64,000 nucleotides of DNA from Sphingomonas sanguinis (GTDB lineage Bacteria > Pseudomonadota > Alphaproteobacteria > Sphingomonadales > Sphingomonadaceae): positions 1,771,001-1,835,000 of the forward strand of contig NZ_CP079203.1 of the NCBI RefSeq assembly GCF_019297835.1, given 5' to 3'. The notes below the pieces were generated by a model. It saw nothing but the letters and a program-made list of their open reading frames with translations. It made no database searches and was not told the origin of the DNA. Numbering within the stretch: position 1 is the stretch's first letter; each line of letters begins with the position of its first letter. The position numbers and the translations under genes were made by a program. Positions 2,302 through 60,770 of the stretch are shown piece after piece.

Positions 2302-2407
2302 CCCCCCTCCCGCAGGCGGGAGGGGTTGGGGGAGGGAAAGGCCACAGGCTATGGTCTCGGTGAGACTCCTTGCCCTCCCCCATCCCCTCCCGTTTATGGG
2401 AGGGGCG
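2302..2407. repeat. Repeat family B, copy 1 (complete, palindromic)
   Basis: About 105 bp with G/C-rich outer arms, each itself a hairpin (CCCTCCCGC / GCGGGAGGG type). The core holds GTCTC (2354-2358) and GAGAC (2362-2366) separated by GGT. Two further complete copies occur at 5537-5645 and 20093-20202. All three sit in gaps between minus-strand genes. Confidence 0.85.
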
Positions 2408-5536: not shown

Positions 5537-5645
5537 AGCCCCTCCCCCGGAGGGGGGAGGGGTTTGGGGAGGGGGCTACGCCACGGGCGATGGTCTCTGT
5601 GAGACTCCCTGCCCTCCCCCATCCCCTCCCGCCTGCGGGAGGGGC
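5537..5645. repeat. Repeat family B, copy 2
   Basis: Same architecture as 2302-2407: G-rich hairpin arms around a core with GTCTC and GAGAC (5593-5605), here separated by TGT. It lies between mmsA and the acyl-CoA dehydrogenase and would be transcribed inside the operon mRNA. Confidence 0.85.
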
Positions 5646-14543: not shown

Positions 14544-14772
14544 CCGTTCAGCCTGAGCGAAGTCGAAGGCCACGTCCTATTCCTCCCCTGCAAGGGGAGG
14601 GGGACCAGCGAAGCTGGTGGAGGGGTGTCACCGGTCGCGATGGCGGCGTGCGCCAAACCAAGCGGGACACCCCTCCGTCAGGCCTTCGGCCTGCCGCCTC
14701 CCCTTGCAGGGGAGGAATAGCATTCTCCGCTGGTTTCCCGTGGCCTTCGACTTCGCTCAGGCTGAACGGAGG
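14544..14772. repeat. Repeat family A: inverted pair enclosing a family C element
   Basis: Outer arms 14544-14572 (+) and 14741-14772 (inverted) share CCGTTCAGCCTGAGCGAAG followed by TCGAAGGCCA. The 308-bp gap 14511-14818 contains only these repeats and no gene; the segment lies between the efflux channel gene and the convergent phosphate transporter. Confidence 0.85.
14579..14719. repeat. Repeat family C, copy 1
   Basis: A 141-bp palindromic element with arms ATTCCTCCCCTGCAAGGGGA and its complement at the right end. Internal hairpins include CCAGCGAAGCTGG and CAGGCCTTCGGCCTG. A related copy is at 48850-48970. It is nested inside the family A pair. Confidence 0.85.
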
Positions 14773-56472: not shown

Positions 56473-56661
56473 AAGAGGCCGGGAGCGGCCCCAAGCACTG
56501 GTAGGAAGGGGGTCATGCCGCAACGCATGACCGGATGCGGAGGAAGCCCGGAAACCGGGGATTCCGTACCTCCCTCGTCCTGATCGCGACGCGCTTGGCG
56601 CGCGGTGCTAAGGGCTGGACGCCGACTCGAACGGAACAAGAACAAAGGAGCGGCATCGGTG

Positions 56662-58584
56662 ATGGATTTCAGGGATAGCCGGGATAGCGACATGACGACT
56701 GATATGCTCGAAAAGATGGCGGCGGACACGGCCCAGAACGCGGCCCCCGCGCCGACCCCGGCGGACACCAAGTCGGTGCGCCCGCAACCCTATCCGGTCG
56801 AGGTCGACCATGCCCGCGACGCGCGGCTGACCGACTTCGGCAAGGAAACGCTGAACGACCGCTATCTCCTGCCCGGCGAAAGCTATCAGGACCTGTTCGT
56901 GCGCGTGGCCTCGGCCTATGCCGACAATGCCGAACATGCCCAGCGGCTCTACGACTATATCTCGAAGCTGTGGTTCATGCCCGCGACGCCCGTCCTGTCG
57001 AACGGCGGCACCGGTCGCGGCCTGCCGATCAGCTGCTATCTGAACTCCGTGCCCGACAGCCTGGACGGCATCGTCACCACCTGGAACGAGAATGTCTGGC
57101 TCGCCTCGCGCGGCGGCGGCATCGGCACCTATTGGGGCCAGGTGCGCGGCATCGGCGAGCCGGTCGGCCTGAACGGCAAGACCAGCGGCATCATCCCCTT
57201 CGTCCGCGTGATGGACTCGCTGACGCTGGCGATCAGCCAGGGCTCGCTGCGTCGCGGTTCGGCCGCCTGCTATCTCGACATCTCACACCCCGAGATCGAG
57301 GAGTTCTTGGAAATCCGCAAGCCCAGCGGCGACTTCAACCGCAAGGCGCTGAACCTCCATCACGGCGTCCTGATCCCCGACGCCTTCATGGAAGCGGTCC
57401 GCGACGGCGCCGAATGGCAGCTGAAGAGCCCGAAGACCGGCGAGGTCCGCGCGACCGTCGACGCGCGTGCGCTGTTCCAGAAGCTGGTCGAAACCCGTCT
57501 GGCGACCGGTGAGCCGTACATCGTCTTCGCCGACCATGTGAACAAGAACATGCCCAAGCATCACCGCGAGCTGGGGCTGAAGGTGTCGACCTCGAACCTG
57601 TGTTCGGAAATCACCCTGCCGACGGGTATCGATCACAAGGGCAAGGACCGCACCGCCGTCTGCTGCCTGTCCTCGCTCAACCTGGAAACCTGGGACGAGT
57701 GGAAGGACGACAAGCAGTTCATCGAGGACGTGATGCGCTTCCTCGACAATGTCCTGCAGGACTATATCGAGCGGCACGAGCCGGGCATGGAGCGTGCCGC
57801 CTATTCGGCTGGTCGCGAGCGCTCGGTCGGCCTGGGCGTGATGGGCTTCCACAGCTTCCTGCAGGCGCGCAACATCCCCTTCGAGGGCGCGATGGCCAAG
57901 TCGTGGAACCTGCGGATGTTCAAGCACATCAATGCGCAGGTGAACCAGGCGTCGATGACCCTGGCGGTCGAGCGCGGGCCGTGCCCCGATGCGGCCGATG
58001 TCGGCGTGATGGAGCGTTTCAGCTGCAAGATGGCGATCGCGCCGACCGCGTCGATCAGCATCATCTGCGGCGGCACCAGCGCCTGCATCGAGCCGATCCC
58101 GGCGAACATCTATACCCACAAGACGCTGTCGGGGTCGTTCTCGGTCAAGAACCCCTATCTCGAAAAGATCCTGATCGCGAAGTCGAAGAATTCGGATGCG
58201 GTCTGGAACTCGATCCTCGAACATGGCGGCTCGGTCCAGCATCTCGACTTCCTGAGCCAAGAAGAGAAGGACACGTTCAAGACCTCGTTCGAGATCGACC
58301 AACGCTGGCTGCTCGAACTGGCGGGCGACCGTACGCCCTATATCGATCAGGCGCAGTCGCTGAACCTGTTCATCCCGGCGGACGTGGAAAAGTGGGACCT
58401 GCTGATGCTCCACTTCCGCGCCTGGGAGCTGGGCATCAAGTCGCTCTATTACCTCCGCTCCAAGTCGGTGCAGCGCGCCGGTTTCGCTGGGAGCGGCGGC
58501 GTCGAGGCCGACAACACGATCAGCGCACCGAAGTTCGAAATCGGGGAAACGACCGATTACGACGAGTGCTTGGCGTGTCAGTGA
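56662..58584 (+). CDS. nrdA: Ribonucleoside-diphosphate reductase, alpha subunit (class I)
   Basis: Catalytic subunit making deoxyribonucleotides, 640 aa from ATG 56662 (AAAGGAG upstream with long spacing; other in-frame starts at 56659 GTG and 56692 ATG are possible). Motifs: 'NGGTGRGLPISCYL' (first redox Cys), 'SNLCSEITLP' (active-site N-x-C-x-E), 'RTAVCCLSSLNLE' (second redox Cys), 'SLYYLRSKS' (radical-transfer Tyr pair) and C-terminal 'CLACQ' redox pair (Cys636, Cys639). The N-terminal ATP-cone is not evident. nrdB lies 1.1 kb downstream, interrupted by three small genes. Confidence 0.95.
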   Translation: MDFRDSRDSDMTTDMLEKMAADTAQNAAPAPTPADTKSVRPQPYPVEVDHARDARLTDFGKETLNDRYLLPGESYQDLFVRVASAYADNAEHAQRLYDYISKLWFMPATPVLSNGGTGRGLPISCYLNSVPDSLDGIVTTWNENVWLASRGGGIGTYWGQVRGIGEPVGLNGKTSGIIPFVRVMDSLTLAISQGSLRRGSAACYLDISHPEIEEFLEIRKPSGDFNRKALNLHHGVLIPDAFMEAVRDGAEWQLKSPKTGEVRATVDARALFQKLVETRLATGEPYIVFADHVNKNMPKHHRELGLKVSTSNLCSEITLPTGIDHKGKDRTAVCCLSSLNLETWDEWKDDKQFIEDVMRFLDNVLQDYIERHEPGMERAAYSAGRERSVGLGVMGFHSFLQARNIPFEGAMAKSWNLRMFKHINAQVNQASMTLAVERGPCPDAADVGVMERFSCKMAIAPTASISIICGGTSACIEPIPANIYTHKTLSGSFSVKNPYLEKILIAKSKNSDAVWNSILEHGGSVQHLDFLSQEEKDTFKTSFEIDQRWLLELAGDRTPYIDQAQSLNLFIPADVEKWDLLMLHFRAWELGIKSLYYLRSKSVQRAGFAGSGGVEADNTISAPKFEIGETTDYDECLACQ

Positions 58585-58603
58585 GCGAATTGTGACAGCC
58601 TAA

Positions 58604-58658
58604 TCCCTCTCCCTTTGGGAGAGGGAGGGAGCCGCGAAGGCGGCGGAAGGGTGAGGGT
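58604..58658 (+). repeat. Repeat family D, left copy (flanks DUF559 gene)
   Basis: 55 bp: hairpin CCCTCTCCC-TTT-GGGAGAGGG, then GCCGCGAAGGCGGC hairpin, then GGAAGGGTGAGGG. Its inverted counterpart at 59098-59153 is nearly identical. The DUF559 start codon (GTG 58659) follows immediately. Confidence 0.9.
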
Positions 58659-59087
58659 GTGCGTCACTACGACAATCATCGCTCCGGCACGGTGCAACGC
58701 GCCCGCCAACTCCGCCGCGACGCGTCCGAACCCGAACGTCGCCTGCTCCGCGCACTACGTGAAACCTATCCGCATCTGAAATGGCGTCATCAGGCGCCGC
58801 TGGGACCTTTCTTCGCCGACATGCTGTGCTTTGCCGAAAAGCTGGTCATCGAGGTCGACGGCGATACGCACGCCGCCGCAGAAGGCTATGACGCGTCACG
58901 CGAAGATTTCATGGAGCGCGAGGGGTATCGGACGGTTCGCGTCAGCAATGCAGACGCGATGCAAAATCTCGAAGGCGTGTTGACCCAAATCTCCTTCTCC
59001 CTTGGGGAGAAGGAAGGGGTCCGCGCGGCAAAGCCGCGTGGAAAGGATGAGGGCGGGTTGTCCGCGAAAAAGGGCAGGCCGGCATGA
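58659..59087 (+). CDS. DUF559 (Vsr/PD-(D/E)XK-like) endonuclease-type protein
   Basis: 142 aa from GTG 58659. Residues 12-110 match DUF559: 'SEPERRLLRALRE' (Glu24, Glu26), 'WRHQAPLGPFFADMLCF' (Asp54), 'LVIEVDGDTH' (Glu65, Asp67, His71) and 'FMEREGYRTVRVSNADA'. The order E ... D ... ExD ... H fits the very-short-patch-repair/PD-(D/E)XK fold, so metal-dependent DNA cleavage is inferred. From residue 111 onward the protein is translated repeat DNA. The gene starts at the last base of one family D copy and ends within a terminator hairpin serving the opposite strand. It splits nrdA from nrdB. Confidence 0.88.
   Translation: MRHYDNHRSGTVQRARQLRRDASEPERRLLRALRETYPHLKWRHQAPLGPFFADMLCFAEKLVIEVDGDTHAAAEGYDASREDFMEREGYRTVRVSNADAMQNLEGVLTQISFSLGEKEGVRAAKPRGKDEGGLSAKKGRPA
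58991..59053 (+). repeat. Repeat family D, internal divergent copy
   Basis: Direct-orientation relative of the left copy inside the DUF559 3' end: hairpin CTTCTCCCTTGGGGAGAAG, then CCGCGCGGCAAAGCCGCGTGG, then AAAGGATGAGGG. It encodes the C-terminal tail of the protein. Confidence 0.8.
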
Positions 59088-59101
59088 ACCGGACCTGCCC
59101 T
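59067..59101 (-). terminator. Rho-independent terminator of the DUF2171 gene
   Basis: On the minus strand AGGGCAGGTCCGG / CCGGCCTGCCCT (one bulged base) with loop TTCATG is followed by TTTTT (59071-59067). It ends the minus-strand transcript of 59159-59410 and overlaps the DUF559 stop codon on the other strand. Confidence 0.85.
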
Positions 59102-59153
59102 CACCCTTCCGCCGCTACGCGGCTCCCTCCCTCTCCCAAGGGGAGAGGGAGTA
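59098..59153 (-). repeat. Repeat family D, right copy (inverted)
   Basis: Reverse complement of the left copy with about four differences over 55 bp. Lies between the DUF559 end and the DUF2171 stop. Confidence 0.9.
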
Positions 59154-59158
59154 ATGGC

Positions 59159-59410
59159 TCACTCGGCCTCTTCGAACTCGTCGACGGCGTTCTGGGCGGT
59201 CGCGGACAGTCGGACCGTGTCGCCCTCGACTTCGGCGACCAGGCCGAGCGGCAGGTAATGATGCTTGGCGCCCTGCCCGTCCTGGGTCTGGGGGCTGTCG
59301 TTCTTGGTCAGCTTGATGCGATCGCCATCGACGTGATCGACCGTGCCGACATGGACGCCGTCCGCGCCGACGACTTCGGCATGTTCCTTGATCTGGCTGA
59401 CATCGACCAT
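59159..59410 (-). CDS. DUF2171 family protein
   Basis: 83 aa. The pattern 'IKEHAEVVGADGVHVGTVDH' then 'GDRIKLTKNDS' and 'HHYLPLGLVAEVEGDTVRLS' matches DUF2171, a small PRC-barrel-like fold of unknown role often adjacent to stress genes in sphingomonads and rhizobia. Acidic C-terminus 'VDEFEEAE'. Divergent from the 65-aa membrane protein at 59467. Confidence 0.85.
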   Translation of the reverse strand: MVDVSQIKEHAEVVGADGVHVGTVDHVDGDRIKLTKNDSPQTQDGQGAKHHYLPLGLVAEVEGDTVRLSATAQNAVDEFEEAE

Positions 59411-59466
59411 CTTACGTCTCCTGTGTTGGGTTCGGGTTCGGAACGCGCAACGCTGGAAATGGTCGC

Positions 59467-59664
59467 ATGACGGGGGCGGCGATCATGTACGGCGTTGCCG
59501 CCCTGTTAACCGGGATCGGCGCAACGCTGTTGCTGCAACTCCGCACCCCCCGGTCGGAGCAGGGCCGCTACGCCCGACTGATCGCGGGCACCATGTTCGC
59601 CATGGGCGGGATCATTCTCGTCGGTTTCGCCACCGCTCTGCGCTCCTGGGCGAGCAGCGGCTGA
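59467..59664 (+). CDS. Hypothetical two-pass small membrane protein (65 aa)
   Basis: Two hydrophobic segments ('MYGVAALLTGIGATLLLQL' and 'LIAGTMFAMGGIILVGFATA') separated by a charged loop 'RTPRSEQGRYAR'. Clean open frame with GGAAA upstream. Lies 50 bp before nrdB on the same strand, so it may be co-transcribed with it. Confidence 0.6.
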   Translation: MTGAAIMYGVAALLTGIGATLLLQLRTPRSEQGRYARLIAGTMFAMGGIILVGFATALRSWASSG

Positions 59665-59714: not shown

Positions 59715-60770
59715 ATGTCCCTCCTTCAAGCCTCCAAGCAGTATAAGCCCTTCGAATATCCTTGGGCCTTCGAGTTCTGGAAGCGCCAGCAACAGCTCCA
59801 CTGGCTGCCCGAAGAGGTGCCGCTGGGCGAGGATTGCCGCGATTGGGCGCAGAAGCTGACCGATCACGAGCGCAACCTGCTGACCCAGATCTTCCGCTTC
59901 TTCACCCAGGCGGACGTCGAGGTGCAGGACTGCTATCACGAGAAATACGGCCGGGTGTTCAAGCCGACCGAGATCAAGATGATGCTGACCGCCTTCTCCA
60001 ACATGGAGACGGTGCATATCGCCGCGTACAGCCATCTGCTCGACACGATCGGCATGCCCGAGAGCGAGTACGGCGCCTTCCTCGAATATGCCGAGATGAA
60101 GGACAAGCATGACTACATGCAGAATTTCGGCGTCGACAGCGACGAGGACATCGCCCGCACGCTGGCCATGTTCGGCGGCTTCACCGAAGGCGTGCAGCTG
60201 TTCGCGTCCTTCGCGATGCTGATGAACTTCCCGCGCTTCAACAAGATGAAGGGCATGGGCCAGATCGTCAGCTGGTCGGTGCGCGACGAGAGCCTGCATT
60301 GCGAGGGCATCATCCGCATGTTCCACGCCTTCTGCCAGGAGCGCCAGTGCCTGACCAAGGCGGTCAAGGACGACATCGCCGACGTGTGCCAGACGACGAT
60401 CCGCCTGGAGGACAATTTCATCGACCTCGCCTTCGAAATGGGCCCGGTCGAGGGGATGAAGCCCAAGGAGATCAAGAAGTATATCCGCTACATCGCCGAC
60501 TGGCGCCTCAGCCAGCTGGGCCTGAAGCCGATCTACATGATCGACGAGCATCCCCTGCCCTGGCTGACCCCGCTGCTGAACGGCGTGGAGCATGCGAACT
60601 TCTTCGAAACGCGCGCGACCGAATATTCCAAGGCGGCGACGCGCGGCCAGTGGAACGACGTGTGGGACGCGTTCGATACCCGCCAGAAGGCGAAGGCCAG
60701 CAAGGCCGCCAATGAAGAGCCGGGCGAAACCGGCGACATGTTCTCGGCCGCAGGCGTCGCGGCGGAGTGA
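59715..60770 (+). CDS. nrdB: Ribonucleoside-diphosphate reductase, beta subunit (class I)
   Basis: Di-iron radical-generating subunit, 351 aa. Iron ligands by spacing: Asp67 ('QADVEVQD'), Glu98 and His101 ('METVHIAAY'), then Glu and His in 'VRDESLHCEG'. The radical tyrosine is Tyr105, at the correct +4 from His101. GGAG precedes the start. Unlike most genomes it is separated from nrdA by 1.1 kb with a nuclease ORF and a minus-strand gene, so it likely has its own promoter or relies on read-through of the minus-strand region. Confidence 0.96.
   Translation: MSLLQASKQYKPFEYPWAFEFWKRQQQLHWLPEEVPLGEDCRDWAQKLTDHERNLLTQIFRFFTQADVEVQDCYHEKYGRVFKPTEIKMMLTAFSNMETVHIAAYSHLLDTIGMPESEYGAFLEYAEMKDKHDYMQNFGVDSDEDIARTLAMFGGFTEGVQLFASFAMLMNFPRFNKMKGMGQIVSWSVRDESLHCEGIIRMFHAFCQERQCLTKAVKDDIADVCQTTIRLEDNFIDLAFEMGPVEGMKPKEIKKYIRYIADWRLSQLGLKPIYMIDEHPLPWLTPLLNGVEHANFFETRATEYSKAATRGQWNDVWDAFDTRQKAKASKAANEEPGETGDMFSAAGVAAE

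Follow-up and report, generated by a model that had tools for sequence, protein, structure and literature searches.

The window analysed here, a stretch of 64,000 nucleotides from Sphingomonas sanguinis, carries a DUF559 nuclease gene and three copies of a palindromic repeat between nrdA and nrdB (Table 1). The product of the open reading frame matched Pfam family DUF559 (PF04480) at 86.8 bits, above the curated cut-off of 20.6 bits, and so belongs to that family; its match to REase_MTES_1575 (24.4 bits) fell below the cut-off of 38.2 bits for that family. No defence-system model matched the protein, and no Rfam family was found at 58400-59500. The earlier note had described a 55-bp element ending at the GTG start codon (position 58659) of the gene, and an inverted copy downstream; both are present in the sequence. 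Its claim that a third, divergent direct copy is translated as the 3′ end of the gene was confirmed, as the frame reads through copy 2, which encodes residues 111 onward and whose tail points away from the gene. The unit had also been said to separate nrdA from nrdB. It does lie between them, but a DUF2171 gene and a 65-residue open reading frame also occur there, before nrdB. These two frames were retained in several relatives.

Table 1. Features of the DUF559 locus and solo hairpin pairs in the window
Feature	Position	Strand	Remarks
Solo hairpin pair	2304..2405	.	arm type as around DUF559 gene L001; tails inward
Second solo hairpin pair	5539..5644	.	L001 arm type; tails inward
Solo hairpin pair	14582..14715	.	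CCTCCCC arms like those around DUF559 gene L002; tails inward
nrdA, left neighbour	56605..58584	+	ORF; name from the earlier note
Repeat copy 1	58604..58658	+	55-bp palindrome; first hairpin 58604-58626, second 58631-58644; mirror (triplex) tail GGAAGGGTGAGGG 58645-58657, facing gene
DUF559 (PF04480) nuclease gene	58659..59087	+	142 aa, GTG start
Repeat copy 2, diverged, direct	58991..59053	+	within 3′ end of DUF559 gene; hairpin 58992-59014
Repeat copy 3, inverted	59098..59153	-	arms of 39 nt (92% complementary) and 18 nt (100%); tail faces gene
DUF2171 gene	59159-59410		between DUF559 and nrdB
65-aa ORF	59467-59664		no Pfam match; between DUF559 and nrdB
nrdB, right neighbour	59715..60770	+	ORF; name from the earlier note

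A 63-bp repeat query gave 26 BLAST matches on roughly 16 sites in the 4.37-Mb genome, yet three copies occur within 550 bp at the window locus; the clustering around one gene is therefore beyond chance. A pattern with a single loop length recovered no site of this repeat family (family D), and five sites of another palindrome. Four DUF559 matches were found in the S. sanguinis genome, and three of these were bracketed by palindromes within ~150 bp of the domain. Each bracketed gene has a different family: CCCCTCCCGC..GCGGGAGGGG around gene L001, CCTCCCCG..CGGGGAGG around gene L002 and TCCCTCTCCC..GGGAGAGGGA in the window. The fourth match (L004) is weak (<60 bits), lies inside a large open frame and has no hairpin. 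A short stretch of the defence model Hhe matched gene L001 at 18.8 bits.

DUF559 was found in 102 of 119 Sphingomonadaceae genomes. The sample comprised 33 loci together with 60 further stretches, the latter chosen among the matches listed so as to favour multi-copy genomes; genes were accepted at 60 bits or more, and hairpins with a stem of at least 8 and a loop of 2-8 were sought within 250 bp. A hairpin was present at 93 of the 95 genes (both sides 79, one side 14, none 2), one gene being counted twice because L026 is also contained in L065. When only hairpins with C/T arms were considered, the same 95 genes divided into 64 with hairpins on both sides, 20 on one side and 11 with none. In the 100 bp nearest the domain, hairpin density was 9-11 per kb, versus 0.15-0.75 per kb at 300-3200 bp, with eight antisense rows included. 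DUF559 profile matches on antisense frames were rejected as artefacts and removed from the final 95-gene counts. Such frames of the DUF559 genes in L001-L093 reached ~74 bits, a mirror-coding oddity of these GC-rich genes.

Among 63 genes with hairpins both upstream and downstream, the two were closer as inverted copies in 49, closer as direct copies in 12 and tied in 2. The open frame extended through the downstream C/T hairpin before its stop in 71 of the 84 genes having one, which generalises the repeat-encoded 3′ end observed in the window. The earlier note had proposed a test of whether family D repeats flank the DUF559 genes of relatives. These genes are indeed flanked by palindromes, which bears the idea out in a refined form, each gene having its own family rather than family D.

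Beyond the Sphingomonadaceae, a hairpin lay within 300 bp at 28 of 29 loci from other Alphaproteobacteria (31 rows, the two extra ones scoring below 2 bits) and at all 24 loci newly fetched for the phylum, the loci in both samples being best-scoring matches, not a random draw. Named loci were scanned using a profile from a six-protein alignment led by YcjD, with a looser hairpin definition (stem of at least 7, against 8 in the other counts). Among the best 80 of at least 577 relatives, 65 had a C/T-armed hairpin within 250 bp, 46 of them on both sides, and the density was 3.64 per kb near the gene versus 0.07 farther out. By record title, the positive loci came from Elusimicrobia, Chloroflexi SAR202, Nitrospiria, Gastranaerophilales, deltaproteobacterial records and many Proteobacteria; no C/T-armed hairpin was found at 15 of the 80, including a Dadabacteria locus. 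Of eight plasmid loci, five carried such hairpins, among them one from Deinococcus (one side), and none was found at L159 (Azospirillum), L162 (Novosphingobium) and L164 (Picosynechococcus).

Repeat abundance was determined in the 119 Sphingomonadaceae genomes with the pattern CCTCYCCC(1-7)GGGRGAGG, so that the arms of other families were not counted. Genomes without DUF559 (n = 17) contained a mean of 0.88 palindromes (maximum 4), genomes with only weaker DUF559 matches (n = 21) a mean of 0.43 (maximum 5), and genomes whose best match reached E ≤ 1e-22 (n = 81) a mean of 24.8. All 38 palindrome-rich genomes (10 or more) were among these 81, of which 16 had zero palindromes of the one pattern counted. 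A reversed-pattern control gave 0-2 per genome. DUF559 copy number and palindrome number were correlated (Spearman 0.63), with the genomes being related, so that P values overstate the association.

The same tie was observed at the nrdA-nrdB gap in 30 Sphingomonas-group loci, the S. sanguinis locus included. C/T palindromes were present at 13 of 13 loci with DUF559 in the gap and at 2 of the 17 where DUF559 had no match, 8 of these 17 falling short of nrdB. A family D query gave 2-26 matches in nine genomes with DUF559 in the gap and 1-2 in seven without, in counts that include flank matches and in which at most the best 26 candidates were scored per genome. In one sister species, the NrdA C-terminus (200 residues) was 98.5% identical, and the DUF559 protein in the gap only 55%. 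The gap appears to be a replacement hot spot, as sister species (L099, L100) whose NrdA C-termini are nearly identical carry DUF559 proteins only 50-55% identical, each with its own palindromes. At L006, L025, L046, L053 and L057, stretches of ~1.25 kb adjoining DUF559 genes of different clades are alike, perhaps reflecting a second hot spot.

Pairing between nuclease and repeat was examined by a within-genome cognate test on 83 genes from 34 genomes, that is, the 95 genes minus 11 without a C/T-armed hairpin and one duplicate (L026/L065). The nearest DUF559 in another genome shared an identical hairpin arm in 45 of the 83 cases, at a median protein identity of 62%. When hairpins were shuffled among the paralogues of each genome, the expectation was 11.5 (sd 3.4, maximum 24 in 2000 shuffles). 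Within genomes, 4 of 111 paralogue pairs shared an arm. The flanking repeat thus tracks the lineage of the nuclease.

On the gene side of most hairpins there is a G-rich tail that mirrors the purine arm, for example CCCCTCCC..GGGAGGGG-CT-GGGGGAGGG, CCCTCCCCC..GGGGGAGGG-TT-GGGTGGGGG and CCCCTTCCC..GGGAAGGGG-TT-GGGGATGGG. Where the arms are asymmetric, the tail on the gene side was nearer to the mirror in 98 cases, nearer to a direct copy in 11 and tied in 66, and the outer side gave 40, 27 and 108, respectively. Since duplication does not make mirrors, we infer that the two hairpin arms and the tail have been selected together as three strands.

The tails were next compared with the purine-motif rule, in which the third strand runs antiparallel to the purine arm and places G on G and either A or T on A. 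A perfect third strand was found on the gene side at 123 of 161 Sphingomonadaceae sites and on the outer side at 11; a letter-shuffled control gave a mean of 2.7 (maximum 8). The mean triplex score for 116 asymmetric sites was 7.36 with their own tail and 5.57 with a direct copy, and swapping tails within genomes gave 6.06 (maximum 6.43 in 500). When the third strand was placed by G positions alone (127 sites), the base opposite A was T in 88 instances, A in 113, C in 3 and G in 3. In other Alphaproteobacteria, 20 of 30 sites were perfect on the gene side versus 5 outside, the within-genome swap being uninformative there because each genome has one gene. At the named loci, 95 of 111 sites fitted the rule versus 15 outside, with one mismatch allowed.

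In the window, with the triplex score expressed as matches minus mismatches over 9 positions, copy 1 scored 9 on its gene side and 3 on its outer side, and copy 3 scored 7/9 (one mismatch) on its gene side and 1/9 outside. Copy 2 scored 3/9 in the 34 bases considered; beyond these it ends in GGATGAGGG, by eye a fitting third strand for the purine arm of this copy. On sequence grounds, the mirror tail, a feature absent from the earlier note, makes these repeats triplex-type elements and not ordinary REPs.

The residues R19, E26, L29, L33, Q45, D54, E65, D67, G68, H71, D78, R81, G89 and R94 were invariant in 37 aligned DUF559 proteins, and E65, D67, H71 and D78 we take to be the PD-(D/E)XK / EDxHD motif residues. 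For a 35-protein profile, the nearest solved chains were 3hrl, an endonuclease-like protein, at E 2.5e-37 and 3r3p, the mobile intron protein I-Bth0305I, at E 5.2e-5; PvuRts1I was matched at E 0.07. Sequence comparison also matched 3hrl (E 1e-10). The DUF559 protein is accordingly related to Vsr-like and EDxHD nucleases, and nuclease activity is predicted. With EDxHD homing endonucleases and Vsr it shares the profile match to 3r3p and the invariant E, D, H and D. Unlike them, it is a free-standing single domain bracketed by repeats, and no intron or intein was seen at the window locus. One review counts EDxHD as a homing endonuclease family whose targets are very long (PMC3943268), and one genome paper places a DUF559 gene in the EDxHD family (PMC9403480).

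The repeats resemble an intrastrand triplex motif of E. coli, known as BoxC, PIT or TM and written CCCTCNCCC(3-6)GGGNGAGGG(3)GGGNGAGGG (PMC4666352). That paper gives 23 copies in K-12, 29 in strain 55989, one in IHE3034, none in Salmonella and 3610 across 262 proteobacterial genomes. It reports that the motif folds into a triplex that is stable in vitro, and found no support for stability of the triplex in vivo (Holder et al. 2015, PMC4666352). It also describes high variability around the sites, which mark unstable regions of the E. coli genome, and states that mobility-providing activities were never found nearby. Its main text contains none of the words endonuclease, DUF, Vsr and ycjD. Both kinds of repeat consist of a C-rich arm, loop, G-rich arm, linker and G-rich mirror. 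Many of the DUF559 loci studied here contain the core CCCTCNCCC..GGGNGAGGG..GGGNGAGGG, and the DUF559 repeats follow the same third-strand rule. They differ in that BoxC/PIT/TM was published as intergenic with no mobility gene near, whereas the present repeats are tied to a nuclease gene and include many families with other arms. The published 3-nt linker does not hold for family D, whose linker contains a second hairpin; many other families have a linker of 2-3 nt.

E. coli ycjD is itself a DUF559 gene. By eye, one BoxC copy, with its tail directed away from ycjD, lies ~165-200 bp past the 3′ end of the gene; a second, degenerate copy overlaps that end. BoxC thus occurs only on the 3′ side. 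Neither the strict hairpin finder nor the plain arm pattern detected anything at this locus. The first of the two copies is a dispersed repeat, as its 43-44 bases alone also match elsewhere in strains that lack ycjD. A near match to ycjD was present in 3365 of 5426 E. coli genomes, and none was found in the rest. In a spread sample, BoxC places numbered 14-30 (median 22, the ycjD place included) in 37 ycjD-positive records and 2-22 (median 7.5; 11 rows with 2-5 and 11 with 10-22) in 22 ycjD-negative records, one of the 60 rows, a 785-kb record, being left out. This contrast was drawn regardless of phylogroup and is taken as supporting evidence only. Treating ycjD-negative E. coli as a simple empty site was rejected: in five strains (L209-L213) the place after fabI, where ycjD and sapF stand in K-12, is taken by a TetR gene and by an operon for RND efflux.

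The usual unit is hairpin-tail-gene-tail-hairpin. To describe copies lying apart from it, hairpins >400 bp from DUF559 domains were counted in the window and 60 Sphingomonadaceae loci. Exactly one tail was found on 14 of 16 single hairpins; among 21 close pairs, both tails pointed inward in 16, and 20 measured 57-135 bp. The gene unit shares this layout with the gene in between, and the pairs therefore look like internally deleted units. More generally, the dispersed copies, whether a single hairpin-tail or a hairpin-tail..tail-hairpin of mostly 57-135 bp, look like non-autonomous derivatives of the gene unit. Such short dispersed pairs recall MITEs, which likewise resemble an internally deleted gene-bearing unit; unlike MITEs, they come with no transposase, and no target duplication was seen. 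Solo family D copies are longer, 12 of 14 having a hairpin in the middle and a tail at each end. Among 16 family D copies, none has a GTAG-type head, 15 end in GGGTGAGGG and one ends in GCGTGAGGG.

Gain or loss was visible at a few sites. A repeat-DUF559-repeat unit between two Sinorhizobium genes was absent in Shinella, where the flanks are ~80% identical; among plasmids this was the sole empty site found. The solo family D copy at L205 was absent in two sister species, the closer of which matches the flanks at 96 and 90% identity, and ~11-13 bp beyond the element were also missing on each side. No target duplication and no clean insertion junction were visible at L205. Site L193 was filled in one sister species and empty in the other.

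Taken together, the bracketing, the lineage-specific pairing, the abundance tie, the covariation of arm and tail, and the kinship to Vsr and EDxHD nucleases make a DUF559-repeat partnership well supported, as far as sequence comparison can establish it. We consider it probable, at roughly 0.65, that DUF559 genes of this type are dedicated partners of triplex-type repeats, with derivative dispersed copies and a cut-and-repair step. The nuclease would recognise its cognate hairpin and third strand on an exposed single strand, such as would be available in a cruciform or during lagging-strand synthesis, and would cut at the folded hairpin-plus-third-strand. Host repair would then copy the element to a new site or restore the old one, as in homing. 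Recognition of the repeat is suggested by the cognate covariation, and cutting by the kinship to nucleases. A PD-(D/E)XK nuclease cuts but does not join, and the repair step is assumed because this class has no joining activity. We propose that DUF559 drives the spread or upkeep of its cognate repeat, as a prediction. Counting against this reading are the imprecise junction at L205, the 16 genomes that have a good DUF559 match but no counted palindrome, the loci without a hairpin, the one-sided BoxC at ycjD, the ycjD-negative records with 10-22 places, and the missing support for a stable triplex in vivo (PMC4666352). The earlier note had put forward a Vsr-like nuclease as a non-transposase mobiliser or maintainer; the bracketing, lineage pairing and abundance tie fit that suggestion, but for mobilisation a clean junction was not found.

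The main rival would confine the nuclease to upkeep. DUF559 would then serve in repair, nicking or resolving obstacles formed by triplexes or hairpins, and would sit beside its own substrate, with the repeats arising otherwise, as its kinship to Vsr-like nucleases and the reported instability of triplex sites in E. coli (PMC4666352) might suggest. Such a role does not easily account for an arm specific to each lineage, or for inverted copies that mostly bracket the gene with their tails facing it, and we regard it as unlikely. It is highly improbable that the gene hitch-hikes as a passenger caught between repeats moved by something else, an alternative already raised in the earlier note. Recombination between repeats is possible in principle, and the nrdA-nrdB gap does host two different DUF559 types. 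A passenger, however, should carry the repeats of its genome and not those of its lineage, and the within-genome cognate test disfavours this explanation, since the flanking family tracks the DUF559 lineage rather than the genome. DNA 500-3200 bp away also contains just 0-0.25 C/T-armed hairpins per kb.

Movement of the repeats by RAYT-type Y1 transposases, with DUF559 an incidental neighbour, was also considered. The DUF559 units are like REP/RAYT systems in that inverted palindromes bracket the gene, each gene lineage has its own family, and abundance follows the gene, as argued for REP/RAYT in PMC2817692. Genomes with a Y1 match were richer in palindromes (mean 44.0 vs 11.4). Against this, no match to PF01797 (Y1), the transposase expected of a RAYT-REP system, was found in the S. 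sanguinis genome or in 24 of the 38 palindrome-rich genomes, the other 14 having one. The three genomes with Y1 but without a good DUF559 match had 0, 0 and 1 palindromes, and four Y1 loci fetched, from 21 genomes with a match, had no C/T-armed hairpins. The Y1 distribution and these hairpin-free loci leave RAYT a negligible probability as mobiliser. The enzymes differ as well, being Vsr/PD-(D/E)XK-like here and HUH/Y1 there, and the DUF559 repeats have no GTAG head but bear a triplex third strand. A further alternative concerns the DNA fold only and is compatible with the partnership: the tail would mark a G-quadruplex, the purine arm and tail supplying four G-runs. By eye, many arm-plus-tail strings do contain four runs of three G. 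A quadruplex would not require arm and tail to be asymmetric mirrors of each other (98 vs 11), or A or T to stand opposite A, and we find it distinctly unlikely.

If DUF559 is the dedicated partner of the triplex-type repeats, a wider view can be put forward tentatively, at somewhat less than even odds. The elements would belong to a new and ancient class of mobile DNA with triplex-folding ends, spread by a cognate Vsr-like nuclease through cut-and-repair; BoxC/PIT would be a non-autonomous form, and YcjD its triplex-dedicated nuclease. The partnership would bring together a common family of nucleases whose function is unknown and the triplex repeats described since the 1990s, both of them orphans, and it predicts a protein that reads three-stranded DNA. 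The natural covariation of arm and tail offers evidence that the triplex fold matters in cells. E. coli K-12 offers a simple system in which the partnership could be tested. Neither a DUF559/Vsr-repeat partnership nor a link between ycjD and triplexes was found in the open-licence literature, and a report elsewhere is possible. The text available of a tagged-REP survey (PMC3733652) contains no mention of Vsr, DUF, Sphingo or Caulobacter. Among the literature matches listed for the string CCCTCTCCC, all look unrelated by title.

Copies of a flanking repeat were also observed on plasmids. Sinorhizobium meliloti pSymB plasmids without a DUF559-gene match carry ~48 bp at 98.9% identity to the DUF559-flanking repeat of Sinorhizobium sp. 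C101 (L167). These copies may overlap the known RIME or ABC palindromes. Among the rows listed, the C101-type repeat occurs at 2-5 places per plasmid.
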